64,000 nucleotides of DNA from Fontisphaera persica (GTDB taxonomy: Bacteria > Verrucomicrobiota > Verrucomicrobiia > Limisphaerales > Fontisphaeraceae), in contig NZ_CP116615.1 of assembly GCF_024832785.1 (NCBI RefSeq), positions 4,030,001-4,094,000 on the forward strand, in the 5' to 3' direction. Made by a program: the position numbers and the translations under genes. Under the pieces are notes generated by a model. It worked only from the letters and a program-made list of their open reading frames with translations, made no database searches and was not told where the DNA came from. Position 1 is the stretch's first letter; each line of letters starts with the position of its first letter. Of the stretch, positions 20,977-29,510 are shown piece after piece.

Positions 20977-21909
20977 TCAACCCAGCGGCGTGGCGCGCAA
21001 GGCGTTCAAGACCTCAAATAACTGGGGCAAATCCGCCAGCAACACCGCGCCCGCCCGGCGCAGGGCCACCTGATAAGCCGGAGCGCTCCGGCCGCCGGCC
21101 AGCAGGGTGACTTGCGGCGGCAGCGCTTTGCGCAATTGATCAATCTCCTCCGGCAGCGCGGGGTCGTCCGCCGGAAAAACAATGCTCAGACCCACCACCC
21201 GCGCCCGGCTGCGCACGGCGGCTCCGGCAATTTCCGCTGCGGGCAAACTGGCCCCCAGATAAACCGCATTCCATCCCTGGCTGCGGGCGGCAAAAGTGGC
21301 CAGCACCGCGCCCAGCTCATGAAGCTGCCCGGCGGGAGTCGCGGCCACCATGGAAGGGCCGCCTTGCGTGGGAAACTGCCGGGCGTGATGTAAAAGGTAT
21401 TCGCGGATGGTGGCCGTGGCAAAGTGCTCCTGGGCGGCGGTCATCTGGCCTTGGGCCCATTCCTCGCCGATGCGCTGGGCCAACGGGGCCACCAATTGCA
21501 CCAGCAGCCCCTGGCTGCCCAGCTCCACCTGCCACTGCTCCAAGTGGCGGATTAAACCCCGTTCGTCAAACTGGCGCACGCACGCCAGCAAATCCTCCAC
21601 GGACACCCTGGCCTGGTGATAACCATTGGGTGAGATTTCTCCCCGCCCGCCGCCGGGTGTGCCCCGTCCCACCAGCTCCCGCAGTTGCTCATCCTGCAGC
21701 CGGGCGATGGCGCCAATATTGTGGCCCTGCTCAGTGGCCTGGCGCAAAAGCGTCAGCCGCTCCAGGTCCCGGTCGCAATAGAGGCGGCGGTGACTATGGC
21801 TGCGCTGAGGTTGAACCGCGCCGTAGCGTTTTTCCCAGATGCGAATGACATGGGCGCTCAAGCCGGTCAACTTCGCCGCCATTTTAATGGTGTGACAAGG
21901 TTGATCCAT
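20977..21909 (-). CDS. CarH/LitR-type B12-binding MerR-family regulator
   Basis: 310 residues from the ATG at 21909. An N-terminal MerR winged helix (HTIKMAAKLTGLSAHVIRIWEKRYG..) is followed by a four-helix B12 cap (about 105-180) and a Rossmann B12-binding domain (185-305, with LHELG, GLSIVF and LLAGGRS). The cap has W151 and the pair E161-H162, the Wx9EH signature of adenosylcobalamin photoreceptors. H197 is the expected lower axial ligand. The residue after W151 is Ala, where Thermus CarH has His132. It probably represses in the dark and releases DNA in light. It is divergent from a sigma-factor gene. Confidence 0.88.
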   Translation of the reverse strand: MDQPCHTIKMAAKLTGLSAHVIRIWEKRYGAVQPQRSHSHRRLYCDRDLERLTLLRQATEQGHNIGAIARLQDEQLRELVGRGTPGGGRGEISPNGYHQARVSVEDLLACVRQFDERGLIRHLEQWQVELGSQGLLVQLVAPLAQRIGEEWAQGQMTAAQEHFATATIREYLLHHARQFPTQGGPSMVAATPAGQLHELGAVLATFAARSQGWNAVYLGASLPAAEIAGAAVRSRARVVGLSIVFPADDPALPEEIDQLRKALPPQVTLLAGGRSAPAYQVALRRAGAVLLADLPQLFEVLNALRATPLG

Positions 21910-21941
21910 GCAAACAATGGTCACAAGATAGCCAGTATCGC

Positions 21942-22036
21942 TTTTGTCGCAAATTAGAGTTTCTTTTGCACAACGAGAATAACATGAAATTTTTAAATAT
22001 CTTAGACAAAAGATTGACAAGCGCTCGTTTTTGTCG
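21942..22036. promoter_or_regulatory. Candidate operator: three TTTTGTCG-type motifs between MerR regulator and sigma gene
   Basis: TTTTGTCG occurs at 21942-21949 and 22029-22036, and its complement GACAAAA at 22005-22011. The first overlaps a possible -35 of the regulator's own promoter (TTGCGA-N16-TATCTT on the minus strand, -35 at 21952-21947). The last lies in the spacer of the sigma gene promoter, next to its -10. Such placement on both promoters is what an autoregulating repressor would use. The link to the MerR protein is inference. Confidence 0.5.
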
Positions 22037-22091: not shown

Positions 22092-23150
22092 ATGCGCCCG
22101 AATAAAAACGTCACCGTCAAGCCCGCCAAGGTCAACCGCAATCGCCGGCCCGCCAAGGCTAAAGCCCATGCGGCCCGTTTTTCGGTGGCCGAGGCCAAAC
22201 TTCCCCCGGTCAAGCCTGCCGCTGAGGTGGTCAAACTGACGCCAAAAGAGGTGGGTCAGGCTTCCCTGGCCGAGCCTGCCCCGGCTGTGGAAATCCCGCT
22301 GGTGGATTACCGGAATGAGTACGAGCCTACGGACAGCCTGAGCCTTTATATGCGCGAGGTGGGGGAAGTGCCCTTGCTGACGCCGGAGGAGGAAGTCAAG
22401 CTGGCGGCGCGCATCAAGCGCGGGGATGCCAAGGCGCGGGAGCGGATGATTCGGGCCAACCTGCGATTGGTGGTGAAGATTGCCCGGGAATATGAGGGCT
22501 ACGGCCTGCCGTTGCTGGACCTGATCAACGAAGGCAACATTGGCCTGATGCGGGCGGTGGAAAAATTTGACCCGGCCAAGGGGGGCAAGCTGTCCACTTA
22601 CAGCTCGTGGTGGATTAAACAGTCCATCCGCCGGGCCATTGCCAACCAGGCCAAGACCGTGCGGCTGCCCATTCACATGCTGGACAAGATTGCCAAGGTG
22701 CGCCGCACCGTGACCCGGCTGGCCGAGGAGCTGGGGCAGGAGCCGACGGATGAAGAGGTGGCGGAGGAACTGGGCATCAGCGTCAAGCGGGCCAACATGC
22801 TGCGCTCGGCGGGGGTGCGGACATCCTCGATTGACGCGCCCATTGGGGACGATGACAGCAGCCGGATGGGCGACATCATTGCCGATGAGCGGGCGGAAAA
22901 TCCGTACGACATGCTCGAACAGAAAACCATGCTGGATTTGCTGAGCGAGCTGGTGGAGCGCCTGCCGGAGCGGGAATACAACATTTTGCGGCTGCGCTTT
23001 GGGCTGGATGGCGGCCCGGAGCGGTCGCTGGAGGAGATTGGCAAGGAATTTGGCGTGACGCGCGAGCGCATTCGGCAGCTTCAGAATCTGGCGCTGAACA
23101 AACTGCGCAAGATGATTGAAAGCCGCGAAGCCGTGCGCATCGCCGCCTGA
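22092..23150 (+). CDS. RNA polymerase sigma-70 factor, group-2 type
   Basis: 352 residues, much shorter than a housekeeping RpoD. A basic N-terminus (about 1-70, Lys/Ala-rich) is followed by region 1.2 ([11 protein letters not shown]), region 2 ([46 protein letters not shown]), region 3 ([18 protein letters not shown]) and region 4 ([28 protein letters not shown]). All core- and promoter-binding regions are intact, and the lack of region 1.1 suits an alternative, stress- or light-type sigma factor. The divergent neighbour is a B12-type MerR regulator, which suggests that this sigma is its main target. A strong terminator follows. Confidence 0.92.
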
Positions 23151-26724: not shown

Positions 26725-28107
26725 TCAGGCTGCGGTTTCCAGCGGTTGCAAGATGAGTTCCAGACCTTCCTGGGCGGCGTTGACCTCCACGTTTTCGCCC
26801 AGCAATTGCACGAAATTGCGGCCCCATTCCACCATGCGGTCCACGTGCTCATCCTGATGCCGGGGGTCGTGGTGGAAGAGAAACACGCGTTTGACTTTGG
26901 CGCTCACGGCCAGGGCCACCACATCGTCCACGCAACCGTGGCCCCAGCCGATGCGGCTCTGGTATTCGGTGGCGTCGTATTGCGAGTCAATGATGAGCAC
27001 GGCCGCCCCCTGCACAAAATCAATGATGCGCTGGTCCTGGCGGCGGGCGTACTCGATGGCCTCCTGGCTCACAGGCGGGCCGTTGTCATTGACGGTGGCA
27101 TGGTACTTGAAGCGTTGGTAAGGCTCGTTGTCGGGCAAATAGGCCACCACGCCCCCTGGGGTGTGGATGCGGTAGCCCATGCACAAGCCGGGATGATTCA
27201 AGTACGTGGCTTCCACGCGCACCCCGCCCACGTCAAAATTCAAATCGCGCATTTCCTCGATGCTGATGTTGCCCGGCAGCTCGGCCAGCGAGATGGGAAA
27301 GTACGGGCTTTCCATCTGGCTGCTGAGGGTGGATTCGAGGCCCTCCCGCGCGCCCTTGTAGCCGATGATGCGCACCTGGTTGCGAGGGTGGTACACCGGT
27401 TCAAAAAAGGGAAAGCCTTGAATATGGTCCCAATGGGTGTGGGAAATCAAAATGGTCACCGCAAAGGGTTTCTCGCCAAATTCCTGCATCAAACTGGCGC
27501 CCAGCGGCGCGATGCCTGTGCCGGCATCGAGGATGATAATCTGCCCGCCGGTGCGGACTTCCACGCAGGCGGTGTTGCCGCCATAGCGCAGCGTGGCCCG
27601 GCCGGGGGTGGGAATGGAGCCGCGCACGCCCCAGAAGCGGACGCGGGGTGGGGCATCCAGCGGCAGGGCGGGGGGCGGCGGCCGGGTGCTGGGCGGGCGC
27701 GGCCGGCGCGCGGCTTCCCGCCGGAGGAAGGTGGTGTCGGTTTCCCCCATCAACTCTTTGACCAGCTTGAGGAATTCGTGGCGCTGGAGGGGTTTGACCA
27801 GGCAGGCGTCAGCGCCGGCCTGGAGCGCGTTCAAACGGTCGGTGGGATAACCGCCGCCGGTGGTGAGCACCACGCGGGTGTAGCTGCGGAGGACAGCCTC
27901 CTGGCGCACCATGCGGCATAGTTGAAAACCATTGCAGCGGGGCATCAGCAAATCGCACACCACCAGCTCGGCACGGTTTTTTAGCGCCAGCTCCAACCCG
28001 GTTTCCCCGTCGTCGGCCACCAGGACGCGCCAACCGTTTTCGGACAGCCAGGCGGCCACAGCGGCACGCTGGCTTTGGTCTTCGTCCACTAGAACAACGG
28101 TTTTCAT
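26725..28107 (-). CDS. Receiver-metallo-beta-lactamase fusion protein (copy 2)
   Basis: 460 residues from the ATG at 28107. Residues 1-118 form a receiver domain with acidic D8, D10 and acceptor D52, T82 and K105. A Pro-rich hinge (about 125-150) leads to a metallo-beta-lactamase-fold hydrolase (150-430) with RFWGVRGSIPTPG, YGGNTACVEV, LDAGTGI, the metal motif SHTHWDHIQGFPFF, NHPG, DSQYDATEYQ, GWGHGCVDD and FHHDPRHQD. All metal-ligand positions look intact. Phosphorylation of the receiver probably controls the hydrolase. The substrate is unknown; related MBL folds act on phosphodiesters, including cyclic nucleotides. It lies 53 bp downstream of a close paralogue. Confidence 0.9.
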   Translation of the reverse strand: MKTVVLVDEDQSQRAAVAAWLSENGWRVLVADDGETGLELALKNRAELVVCDLLMPRCNGFQLCRMVRQEAVLRSYTRVVLTTGGGYPTDRLNALQAGADACLVKPLQRHEFLKLVKELMGETDTTFLRREAARRPRPPSTRPPPPALPLDAPPRVRFWGVRGSIPTPGRATLRYGGNTACVEVRTGGQIIILDAGTGIAPLGASLMQEFGEKPFAVTILISHTHWDHIQGFPFFEPVYHPRNQVRIIGYKGAREGLESTLSSQMESPYFPISLAELPGNISIEEMRDLNFDVGGVRVEATYLNHPGLCMGYRIHTPGGVVAYLPDNEPYQRFKYHATVNDNGPPVSQEAIEYARRQDQRIIDFVQGAAVLIIDSQYDATEYQSRIGWGHGCVDDVVALAVSAKVKRVFLFHHDPRHQDEHVDRMVEWGRNFVQLLGENVEVNAAQEGLELILQPLETAA

Positions 28108-28160
28108 GCCACGGGTTGCGCGTGGGGAAATATAGCTTCCCCGGGCTGTCTGCCAACCGC

Positions 28161-29510
28161 TCACCCGGCGCGCGCCAGGGCGCGGCGGCGCGCCGTGGGC
28201 CGCAACACCACTTCCAGCCGCTCCCGTGCTCCGGCCACCTCCAGGGCGCGCCCGGACGCTGCGGCCAGTTTGCGGGCATGCCGCACCATGGCGTCAATCT
28301 TGCGGTCGTCATGGCTGGGGTCGTGGTGGAAAAGAAAGAGCTTTTTCACCTCGGCCCGCACGGCGAGGTTCACCGAGTCGTCCACGCAGCTATGGCCCCA
28401 GCCCACGTGGCGCTCGTATTCTTCGGCGTCGTATTGGGAATCCACAATCAGGAGGTCGGAGCCGCGGATGAATTCCACCAGCTTTTGGTCCTGCTGCTCG
28501 GCGAAGGCCTGCGCCTCCGGGCTGACCGTTTGCGCGCCGGCCGAGTGAGATTTCAGGCGCACGTAATTTTCATTGTCCGGGATGAAGGTGATGGAGCCTT
28601 CCGGAGTGAACAACCGGTAGCCCACGCACACGCCGGGGTGATTGACATAGGTGGCGCGCACCTGGATGGAGCCGATGGAAAACTGCAAATCCCGCAGCTC
28701 GGTGAATTGCAGATTGCCGGGCATTTCTTTCAGGCCAATGGGAAAATAGGGGCTTTCCATCTGCCCGGAAAGGGTATCCTGCAGGCCGCGAGTGGCGCCT
28801 TCATAGCCGAGCACCCGCACGGTGTTGCGGGGGTTGTAGGCCGGCACGAAGAAGGGAAAACCCTGGATGTGGTCCCAGTGGGTGTGGGTAATCATCAGGG
28901 TCAGCTCCAGCGGGCGGCCCTTAAATTCGCGCGCCAGCGCCAGCCCCAGCGGGCGGATGCCCGAGCCGGCGTCCAGAATGATGATTTGGCCTGCGGCGCG
29001 GATTTCCACGCAGGAGGTGTTGCCGCCATAACGCACCGTTTCCGGCCCCGGCGACGGGATGCTGCCGCGCACTCCCCAGAAACGGAGACGGGTGGGGGCA
29101 TCTTCCGGAATCATATTGGTGCACGGTGGCATCTCCAACATAGTATCACTTTGGGCCACATTCTCCAAAAGCCGTTTGAGCGCCACCGGATCGTAAGGTT
29201 TGACCAAAAAATGCCGCGCCCCTGCCTCCCGCGCATTCTGGCGGTCGGCGGGAAAGTCCCGGGCGCTGACGGCCACCAGCACCGTGCCGTCAAACGCCGG
29301 CGTATCCCGAAACCGCCGGCAAAGGTGAATCGCCGCCCCTTCCGGCAGCAAAAAGTCCACCACCACCACCCGCGGCCGCTGCCGCTGCGCCAGGTCCCAG
29401 GCTTGTTCGGGAGTTTGCGCCTCCCAGACCGTCCAGCCTTCCGACGCCAGAAAACTTTTCAAGCCACGACGAGCGCCGGCGTCTTCATCAATGAGCAGGA
29501 CGGTCTTCAT
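28161..29510 (-). CDS. Receiver-metallo-beta-lactamase fusion protein (copy 1)
   Basis: 449 residues from the ATG at 29510. The receiver domain has D8, D10, acceptor D52 (VVVVDFLLPEG), S82 and K104, all functional-looking. The hydrolase domain repeats the neighbour's motifs: RFWGVRGSIPSPG, YGGNTSCVEI, LDAGSGI, THTHWDHIQGFPFF, NHPG, DSQYDAEEY, GWGHSCVDD and FHHDPSHDD. The hinge is shorter and less Pro-rich. The two copies are clearly related, from tandem duplication, but have diverged in the receiver more than in the enzyme domain. Two inputs may thus converge on one chemical output. No kinase gene is adjacent. Confidence 0.9.
   Translation of the reverse strand: MKTVLLIDEDAGARRGLKSFLASEGWTVWEAQTPEQAWDLAQRQRPRVVVVDFLLPEGAAIHLCRRFRDTPAFDGTVLVAVSARDFPADRQNAREAGARHFLVKPYDPVALKRLLENVAQSDTMLEMPPCTNMIPEDAPTRLRFWGVRGSIPSPGPETVRYGGNTSCVEIRAAGQIIILDAGSGIRPLGLALAREFKGRPLELTLMITHTHWDHIQGFPFFVPAYNPRNTVRVLGYEGATRGLQDTLSGQMESPYFPIGLKEMPGNLQFTELRDLQFSIGSIQVRATYVNHPGVCVGYRLFTPEGSITFIPDNENYVRLKSHSAGAQTVSPEAQAFAEQQDQKLVEFIRGSDLLIVDSQYDAEEYERHVGWGHSCVDDSVNLAVRAEVKKLFLFHHDPSHDDRKIDAMVRHARKLAAASGRALEVAGARERLEVVLRPTARRRALARAG

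Follow-up and report, generated by a model that had tools for sequence, protein, structure and literature searches.

Background

Response regulators that carry an enzyme of second-messenger metabolism as the output domain are an already known kind of signaling protein. One of them is RegA of Dictyostelium, a eukaryotic enzyme whose catalytic domain belongs to a class unrelated to the metallo-beta-lactamase (MBL) fold. RegA is a response regulator cyclic AMP (cAMP) phosphodiesterase that is switched on via a phosphorelay, as a passage of PMC3783435 describes. A receiver is also combined with a second-messenger enzyme in PleD and similar cyclic di-GMP (c-di-GMP) regulators. Within the MBL fold, YhfI, PDE1, RNase Z and Apyc1 are counted as class II phosphodiesterases in the part of PMC9117128 that deals with them, and hydrolysis of cyclic nucleoside monophosphates (cNMPs) is demonstrated there for Apyc1; the class II enzymes, as described in that part, come without a receiver. 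Here we describe two adjacent genes in a 64,000-nucleotide stretch of the genome of Fontisphaera persica, a bacterium of the order Limisphaerales of the Verrucomicrobiota (contig NZ_CP116615.1, positions 4,030,001 to 4,094,000; hereinafter, the window), each of which encodes a fusion of an N-terminal receiver (REC) with an MBL hydrolase. On balance, and with limited confidence, we favor the prediction that these proteins, P0001 and P0002, are phosphorelay-controlled MBL-fold cyclic mononucleotide phosphodiesterases, with cAMP as the first candidate substrate, that work like RegA. The comparison concerns the mode of action, not membership in a family: RegA is a response regulator with a phosphodiesterase output, and the REC-MBLs combine a receiver with a predicted phosphodiesterase but differ in that their catalytic domain has the MBL fold and that cAMP is a putative substrate.

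A tandem pair of REC-MBL fusion proteins

Both genes lie on the minus strand with a gap of 53 bp between them and are therefore probably co-transcribed. The upstream gene (28161-29510) encodes P0002 (449 aa), in which the receiver, with D52 and K104, covers residues 1-116 (29163-29510, converted from residues; Pfam PF00072 at residues 4-114) and the hydrolase domain covers residues 141-445 (28176-29090, from PF12706 and the alignment); the metal-binding motif HTHWDH, which is invariant in the family, was placed at 28869-28886 by alignment with P0001. The downstream gene (26725-28107) encodes P0001 (460 aa). Its receiver, with D52 and K105 (residues 1-122, 27742-28107; PF00072 at residues 4-116), and its hydrolase domain (residues 155-456, 26740-27645; PF12706) were delimited with the help of an AlphaFold2 (AF2) model, in which the intervening linker (residues 123-154, 27646-27741) has a pLDDT under 50 at residues 124-141; the HTHWDH motif, H223-H228 in the family alignment, is encoded at 27424-27441. 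The matches to Response_reg (PF00072: E 1.7e-20 and 73.7 bits for P0001, E 8.3e-17 and 61.8 bits for P0002, against a cut-off of 30.2) and to Lactamase_B_2 (PF12706: E 1.2e-14 for P0001 and 1.6e-11 for P0002) are all above the curated cut-offs, and the two proteins are 49% identical over the whole length. A preliminary description of this DNA, made from the letters and translations, had already named two adjacent REC-MBL paralogues with phosphorylatable receivers and complete metal-ligand motifs, and each of these points was borne out: both open reading frames (ORFs) contain both Pfam domains, D52 is present in the two proteins along with the lysine, and the metal-ligand residues do not vary among their homologs.

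The latter observation comes from a family alignment of 58 non-identical rows, from which five duplicates had been taken out. In P0001 numbering, H223, H225, D227, H228, H305, D326, H412 and H413 show no variation in any row, and the same holds for H390 and E328; the roles of the conserved residues as ligands, with either H412 or H413 as a ligand, are presumed from the superfamily. With the HxHxDH motif, the further His and Asp ligands and the fold, P0001 and P0002 are MBL-fold metal-dependent hydrolases, and their N-terminal domains, with the acidic pair, the phospho-acceptor Asp, the Thr/Ser and the Lys, are response-regulator receivers. Across the family, with gaps counted, D occurs at position 52 in 50 rows, K at position 105 in 52, and T or S at position 83 in 51. 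The receiver residue set is lost in the member from genome G041, one of the two members of G031 has E at the phospho-acceptor position 52, and one acidic position is altered in one G017 member and in both members of G002.

The AF2 model of full-length P0001 has a pLDDT of 83, and that of the hydrolase alone has a pLDDT of 85 and a pTM of 0.87. The nearest folds are RNase Z (Z 25.2, and 23.8 for the hydrolase-alone model), YhfI (6kns, Z 25.1) and the ELAC homologue 1zkp, followed by PhnP-family enzymes and yeast PDE1 (4ojv, Z 21.2) and, at slightly lower scores, Brucella proteins with bound AMP or GMP; the Z scores range from 25 to about 20, and many are tied. Sequence profiles return the same group, with RNase Z first. 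The REC-MBLs share the MBL fold and the HxHxDH motif with YhfI and PDE1 but are only 14-20% identical to them and possess a receiver; the two features agree with the description of class II phosphodiesterases in the cited part of PMC9117128, and it is by this description, not by direct comparison, that we liken them to Apyc1. Since RNase Z has the motif and the fold as well, these do not fix the substrate, and the choice between RNA and cyclic nucleotides cannot be made from the predicted fold alone. PleD is also among the fold matches; the REC-MBLs differ from it in the class of the enzyme and in belonging to a genome that lacks GGDEF domains (see below).

Genomic context of the enzyme domain and the predicted substrate

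A profile of the enzyme domain yielded 99 matches in 88 of the 387 sampled Verrucomicrobiota genomes. Judging by the open frames, most of these proteins are standalone, and the receiver profile detects a REC fusion at only two of the 91 phylum loci fetched (in G314 and G274). Among plasmids, 245 records match the MBL part, and no record covers 80% of a whole REC-MBL protein; of the 55 matching phage records, the 10 listed match the receiver part only. To characterize the genomic context, we used the 107 MBL ORFs in the chosen loci, 91 from the phylum, 9 from plasmids and 7 from the order to which Fontisphaera belongs. The eight unused phylum matches comprise two from the window's genome, one from G043 and five short or weak ones, and the plasmid loci L089 and L094 were excluded as near-copies of L088. 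Cyclase, FHA, receiver and kinase genes were sought with small profiles built from sequences gathered in the analysis, which may miss some genes; the MBL start was taken as that of the longest ORF, and negative gaps are approximate.

A class III cyclase gene is located directly upstream, on the same strand and at a gap of less than 350 bp, for 34 of the 107 MBL ORFs (33 from the phylum and one from a plasmid), and in 30 of these predicted operons the gap is at most 70 bp, overlaps included. Four further MBL ORFs have a divergent cyclase gene, and 10 cyclase genes take other positions in the flanking DNA that was fetched (up to about 5 kb, with more at some loci). Rhizobial cyclase genes at a distance of two to four genes from the MBL gene, apparently a single shared synteny, were excluded from the operon count. 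Pfam confirmed both CHASE2 and PF00211 in all six cyclases checked. The lysine of the D-K-x-x-G-D motif, which we take to be a mark of the adenylate type, is present in all 34 linked cyclases, and the second specificity residue (T or S) was matched by pattern in 21 of them.

The MBL proteins encoded in these operons are true relatives of the REC-MBLs, beyond mere similarity of fold, because profile scores separate them from other MBLs: the REC-MBL profile gives them a median of 150 bits (worst 49), whereas of the seven other MBL proteins of the window's genome it matches one, with 28 bits, and profile-profile comparison gives E 1.8e-60. On a rhizobial plasmid of Ensifer sp. PDNC004, the cyclase-operon MBL itself belongs to the REC-like type, with 38% identity and a score of 273 bits. 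In a FastTree phylogeny of 164 MBL rows (one G007 gene, L084, was entered twice, and several rows have an odd make-up or long branches), the cyclase label changes seven times, with at least four changes forced by starred branches, so that the association appears to have been gained or lost several times.

No GGDEF domain was found in the window's genome at E 0.001 (13 of the 58 genomes of the order have one at E 1e-10), which rules out c-di-GMP as the substrate in Fontisphaera persica. The genome contains six PF00211 matches, two of them in receiver-bearing proteins, namely a 367-aa receiver-cyclase protein (L104, 5019-6119, minus strand), the motifs of which, EKIKTIGDAY and YDLWGETVNIASR, we read as an adenylate cyclase signature, and a 567-aa HisKA-REC-cyclase protein (L103, 7952-9652, plus strand), in which the last cyclase motif looks degenerate. 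There are seven cNMP-binding matches, one in a short histidine kinase. Across the order, a REC-fused MBL and a strong cyclase (at least 140 bits) occur together in 18 of 58 genomes (Fisher p 0.03), and none of the four genomes devoid of a cyclase has a REC-MBL (p 0.03 to 0.05); these p values, not corrected for the size and completeness of the genomes or for their kinship, lend weak support to the predicted function.

The preliminary description had proposed phosphorelay input to a hydrolytic output, perhaps directed at a nucleotide second messenger; the cyclase operons, the absence of GGDEF and the kinase adjacency in two relatives (see below) speak for it, and we narrow the substrate to a cyclic mononucleotide because of the cyclase-MBL operons of relatives and the GGDEF-free genome. 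The assignment of the substrate to the window pair thus proceeds from the operons of relatives and is to be read as a prediction.

As a separate observation, the short kinase with the cNMP-binding domain is a 369-aa protein (L096, 10258-11367, minus strand; G000:C1, about 4.658-4.659 Mb), and in many genomes of the order the top cNMP-binding match is an open frame of about 369 aa, although only that of the window's genome was read. One may speculate that such a kinase, by reading a cyclic nucleotide, would complete a regulatory loop together with the REC-MBLs.

Proposed mechanism and its implications

Under the proposed phosphodiesterase function, a histidine kinase or, in some relatives, a kinase-REC-Hpt phosphorelay would phosphorylate D52 of the receiver, and the resulting change would be transmitted through the largely poorly predicted linker to the C-terminal domain, altering the hydrolase activity. 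The hydrolase would open a 3',5'-cyclic mononucleotide to the 5'-nucleotide, with cAMP the most likely substrate and cGMP or other cNMPs possible. The cyclic nucleotide would be made by the class III cyclases of the cell; one of these carries a receiver of its own, so that two-component signaling could govern the synthesis of the nucleotide as well as its breakdown. The two ancient paralogues, with their different receivers, could represent two separately addressable breakdown enzymes, allowing the cell to lower one signal in answer to two, presumably separate, kinases. A broader picture, which we put forward tentatively as a possibility short of a probable one, is that the tandem is a bacterial counterpart of RegA built on the MBL fold, encoded in the same genome as a receiver-gated adenylate cyclase, such that kinases set both the synthesis and the breakdown of cAMP, and that the enzyme domain, as a mobile module of output, has in bacteria also been connected to cyclase operons and to FHA and HDOD proteins.

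In bacteria, discussion of cAMP control has mostly centered on the cyclase and the binding protein. If the prediction is correct, a kinase-switched phosphodiesterase would provide a two-component route to lower cAMP fast, without transcription, and both a substrate and an input would be proposed for a large MBL family with the spread in Verrucomicrobiota and plasmids given above. Searches of the open-licence PMC literature returned no paper that we recognized as describing a REC-MBL protein, although some of the papers listed may mention one and earlier domain censuses may well include the architecture; nor did we find in that literature the variant in which an MBL hydrolase is the output of a response regulator and evidence points to a cNMP substrate. 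The conserved-domain label that we associate with this enzyme, TaR3-like, did not occur in the papers listed for it.

Several observations weigh against the proposed function. All but one of the 34 cyclase-linked MBLs belong to a sister subfamily, 25-31% identical to P0001, in which residues fixed in the REC-MBLs are mostly replaced (W159 by G, N178 by E or D, W226 by L, E183 by L), so that the substrate may have changed. The partner place in the operon is also taken by FHA and HDOD genes, and the flanking DNA fetched for the 53 REC-MBL family loci yielded no cyclase gene. The co-occurrence with cyclases across the order weakens to p 0.07 once three divergent members are left out. PDEase_II, which we take to be PF02112, is not among the Pfam families at E 0.1 or less for either protein, and NF041851 (cyclic nucleotide-degrading phosphodiesterase) reaches 34.7 bits with P0002 against a cut-off of 400 and is not among the 25 best matches listed for P0001. 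The genome encodes a DAC (c-di-AMP synthase) domain, so that c-di-AMP may be the signal instead. With respect to the input, no kinase gene was detected with the small kinase profile within 18 kb of the window pair, and five genes of the order that align with the family, as well as L079, lack the receiver.

The alternative partners of the enzyme domain deserve separate description. A small FHA gene occupies the partner place at 13 of the 107 MBL loci (of ten candidate FHA ORFs submitted to Pfam, nine were confirmed and the tenth is not FHA), and these MBLs are closer to P0001, with 35-44% identity and conservation of residues 159, 178 and 226 but not of E183. An HDOD gene lies directly upstream of the MBL gene in two unrelated lineages (L149, 5109-6875, minus strand, in the Verrucomicrobiota genome G292; L085, 7065-8876, plus strand, in Magnetococcus). 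In two genomes of the phylum, the FHA and MBL genes are followed by a gene for a protein with TerB and AI-2E transporter domains (L157, 4541-7848; L151, 4559-7755).

Alternative functions

The partnership of one enzyme family with REC (by fusion), cyclase, FHA and HDOD is also what would be expected if the MBL part were a signaling adaptor or an enzyme of non-phosphodiester chemistry for which these domains are alternative regulatory partners, in which case the cyclase operons would be silent on the substrate. We regard this as improbable, the most so of the functions considered here: the metal-binding residues and the extra His and Glu are invariant throughout the family, which speaks for catalysis, and a cyclase beside an enzyme of the phosphodiesterase fold is most simply a make-and-break pair. 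A receiver-controlled hydrolase acting on another phosphodiester or pyrophosphate, such as c-di-AMP, 2',3'-cyclic nucleotides or a PhnP-like cyclic phosphate, would fit the fold matches, which include PhnP and the PhnP-family diphosphatase 6b9v, and the DAC domain would supply c-di-AMP synthesis in the same genome; however, no conserved neighbor points to any of these pathways, whereas class III cyclases recur beside the relatives, and we consider this option unlikely, if the least so of the alternatives.

Between these two in probability, and still doubtful, is control by the receiver of an RNase Z-type enzyme that would cleave RNA or act on RNA 3' ends, linking signaling to RNA processing; an RNA substrate had been suggested in the preliminary description, and it keeps the support of RNase Z among the nearest folds but has less in its favor than a cyclic mononucleotide. 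RNase Z is the best NCBIfam match of the two proteins (E 1.8e-19 and 2.2e-20), and the region of H390 aligns with the GHS stretch of RNase Z; yet the scores with TIGR02651, 69.9 and 73.0 bits, are far under the cut-off of 292.95, and the REC-MBLs further differ from RNase Z in the N-terminal receiver and perhaps in a short segment where the latter would carry its tRNA arm. In RNase Z, the interval from the motif-3 His to the bridging Asp accommodates the tRNA-binding arm, and in P0001 the presumably corresponding interval from H305 to D326 has only about 20 residues. The window's genome has no RNase Z above the curated cut-off, with the REC-MBLs as the best matches (the control passes in only 9 of 14 genomes), which would leave room for a tRNA-processing role; against it, the single tRNA gene of the window encodes its CCA end, and 25 of the 58 genomes of the order are without a REC-fused MBL, so that an essential tRNA job is not expected of these proteins. 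Two standalone MBL relatives checked in other families of the class are followed by a gene for a 3'-5' exonuclease (DNA_pol_A_exo1, in family f68: L165, 5817-6455; L168, 5830-6462), an arrangement that would be in keeping with an RNA-related role of that subfamily, but no gene, and hence no RNA gene, is widely conserved beside the REC-MBLs at the 53 loci.

Neighbors and kinases of the REC-MBLs

As seen from these 53 loci, the REC-MBLs are mostly orphan regulators. Apart from the family itself, the largest cluster of neighbors, prepilin-type proteins by eye, is present at nine loci, and the remaining clusters comprise four or five loci each, some of them being antisense ORFs. Genes for cNMP-binding proteins near REC-MBLs (adjacent and convergent in G009, about 2.2 kb away in G013) were judged too few for enrichment, without a formal test.

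A connection to kinases, in favor of the proposed cyclic mononucleotide phosphodiesterase function, is seen in two relatives. In G314, which belongs to the same class as Fontisphaera but to another order, the start codon of the REC-MBL gene overlaps the stop codon of a histidine kinase gene (ATGA). In G004, a gene for a 1246-aa GAF-PAS-HisKA-HATPase-REC-REC-Hpt protein is followed, after 39 to 93 bp depending on the choice of the start codon, by a REC-MBL gene of the wider P0001 clade; among the nine kinase matches at the REC-MBL loci of the order, it is the only one directly upstream on the same strand. Kinase partners are not lacking in the window's genome, given its 40 HisKA matches. At another locus (L154, 1296-5919, plus strand), a sensor hybrid kinase (dCache-HAMP-PAS-HisKA-REC) is encoded upstream of an MBL protein, with one small ORF between them; the MBL protein there has a 140-residue N-terminal part without a Pfam match.

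Divergence of the receivers and age of the pair

The enzyme halves of the pair were initially described as close and the receivers as more diverged, which agrees with identities of 58.1% for the MBL domains and 34.7% for the receivers of P0001 and P0002. However, among the 1326 pairs of family members there are 1276 in which the receiver is less conserved than the hydrolase, so that the contrast within the window pair is mostly a general property of the family. Among the 898 pairs with an MBL identity of 52-62%, the mean receiver identity is 44.9% (sd 6.2), which places the window pair about 1.6 sd under the family mean for its enzyme identity. In the stretch of helix 1 (residues 11-24), P0001 and P0002 are 14% identical, and so are P0002 and its G002 orthologue; a difference of this size therefore says little on separate kinases. 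Given the family-wide trend and the same helix-1 difference to the orthologue, we set aside the argument that the receivers are more diverged and hence serve two inputs. The proposal of two inputs acting on one output, which had accompanied that argument, is nonetheless made plausible by the age of the paralogues.

REC-fused MBLs are present in 33 of the 58 genomes of the order, the window's genome counted and G032 entered from its search match alone, a spread that makes the fusion more than a matter of chance. The pairs in G001, G002 and G013 are split in the 58-row tree, where their upstream genes cluster with P0002 and their downstream genes with P0001 (clades of four rows each, both starred), and the second gene of the G051 pair falls within the wider P0001 clade (11 rows, starred). 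As related genomes contain separate orthologues of P0001 and of P0002, arranged in the same way, the phylogeny indicates that the tandem duplication predates the family and that the order of the genes was retained. One of the five receiver-less genes mentioned above is the upstream member of the G013 pair, a 309-aa hydrolase, and the MBL of G048 has no receiver either.

Elsewhere in the window, an ORF at 20977-22020 (minus strand) has, by eye, a MerR-type helix-turn-helix and a cobalamin-binding region, and it adjoins an ORF at 22092-23150 (plus strand) that reads as a sigma-70 factor.

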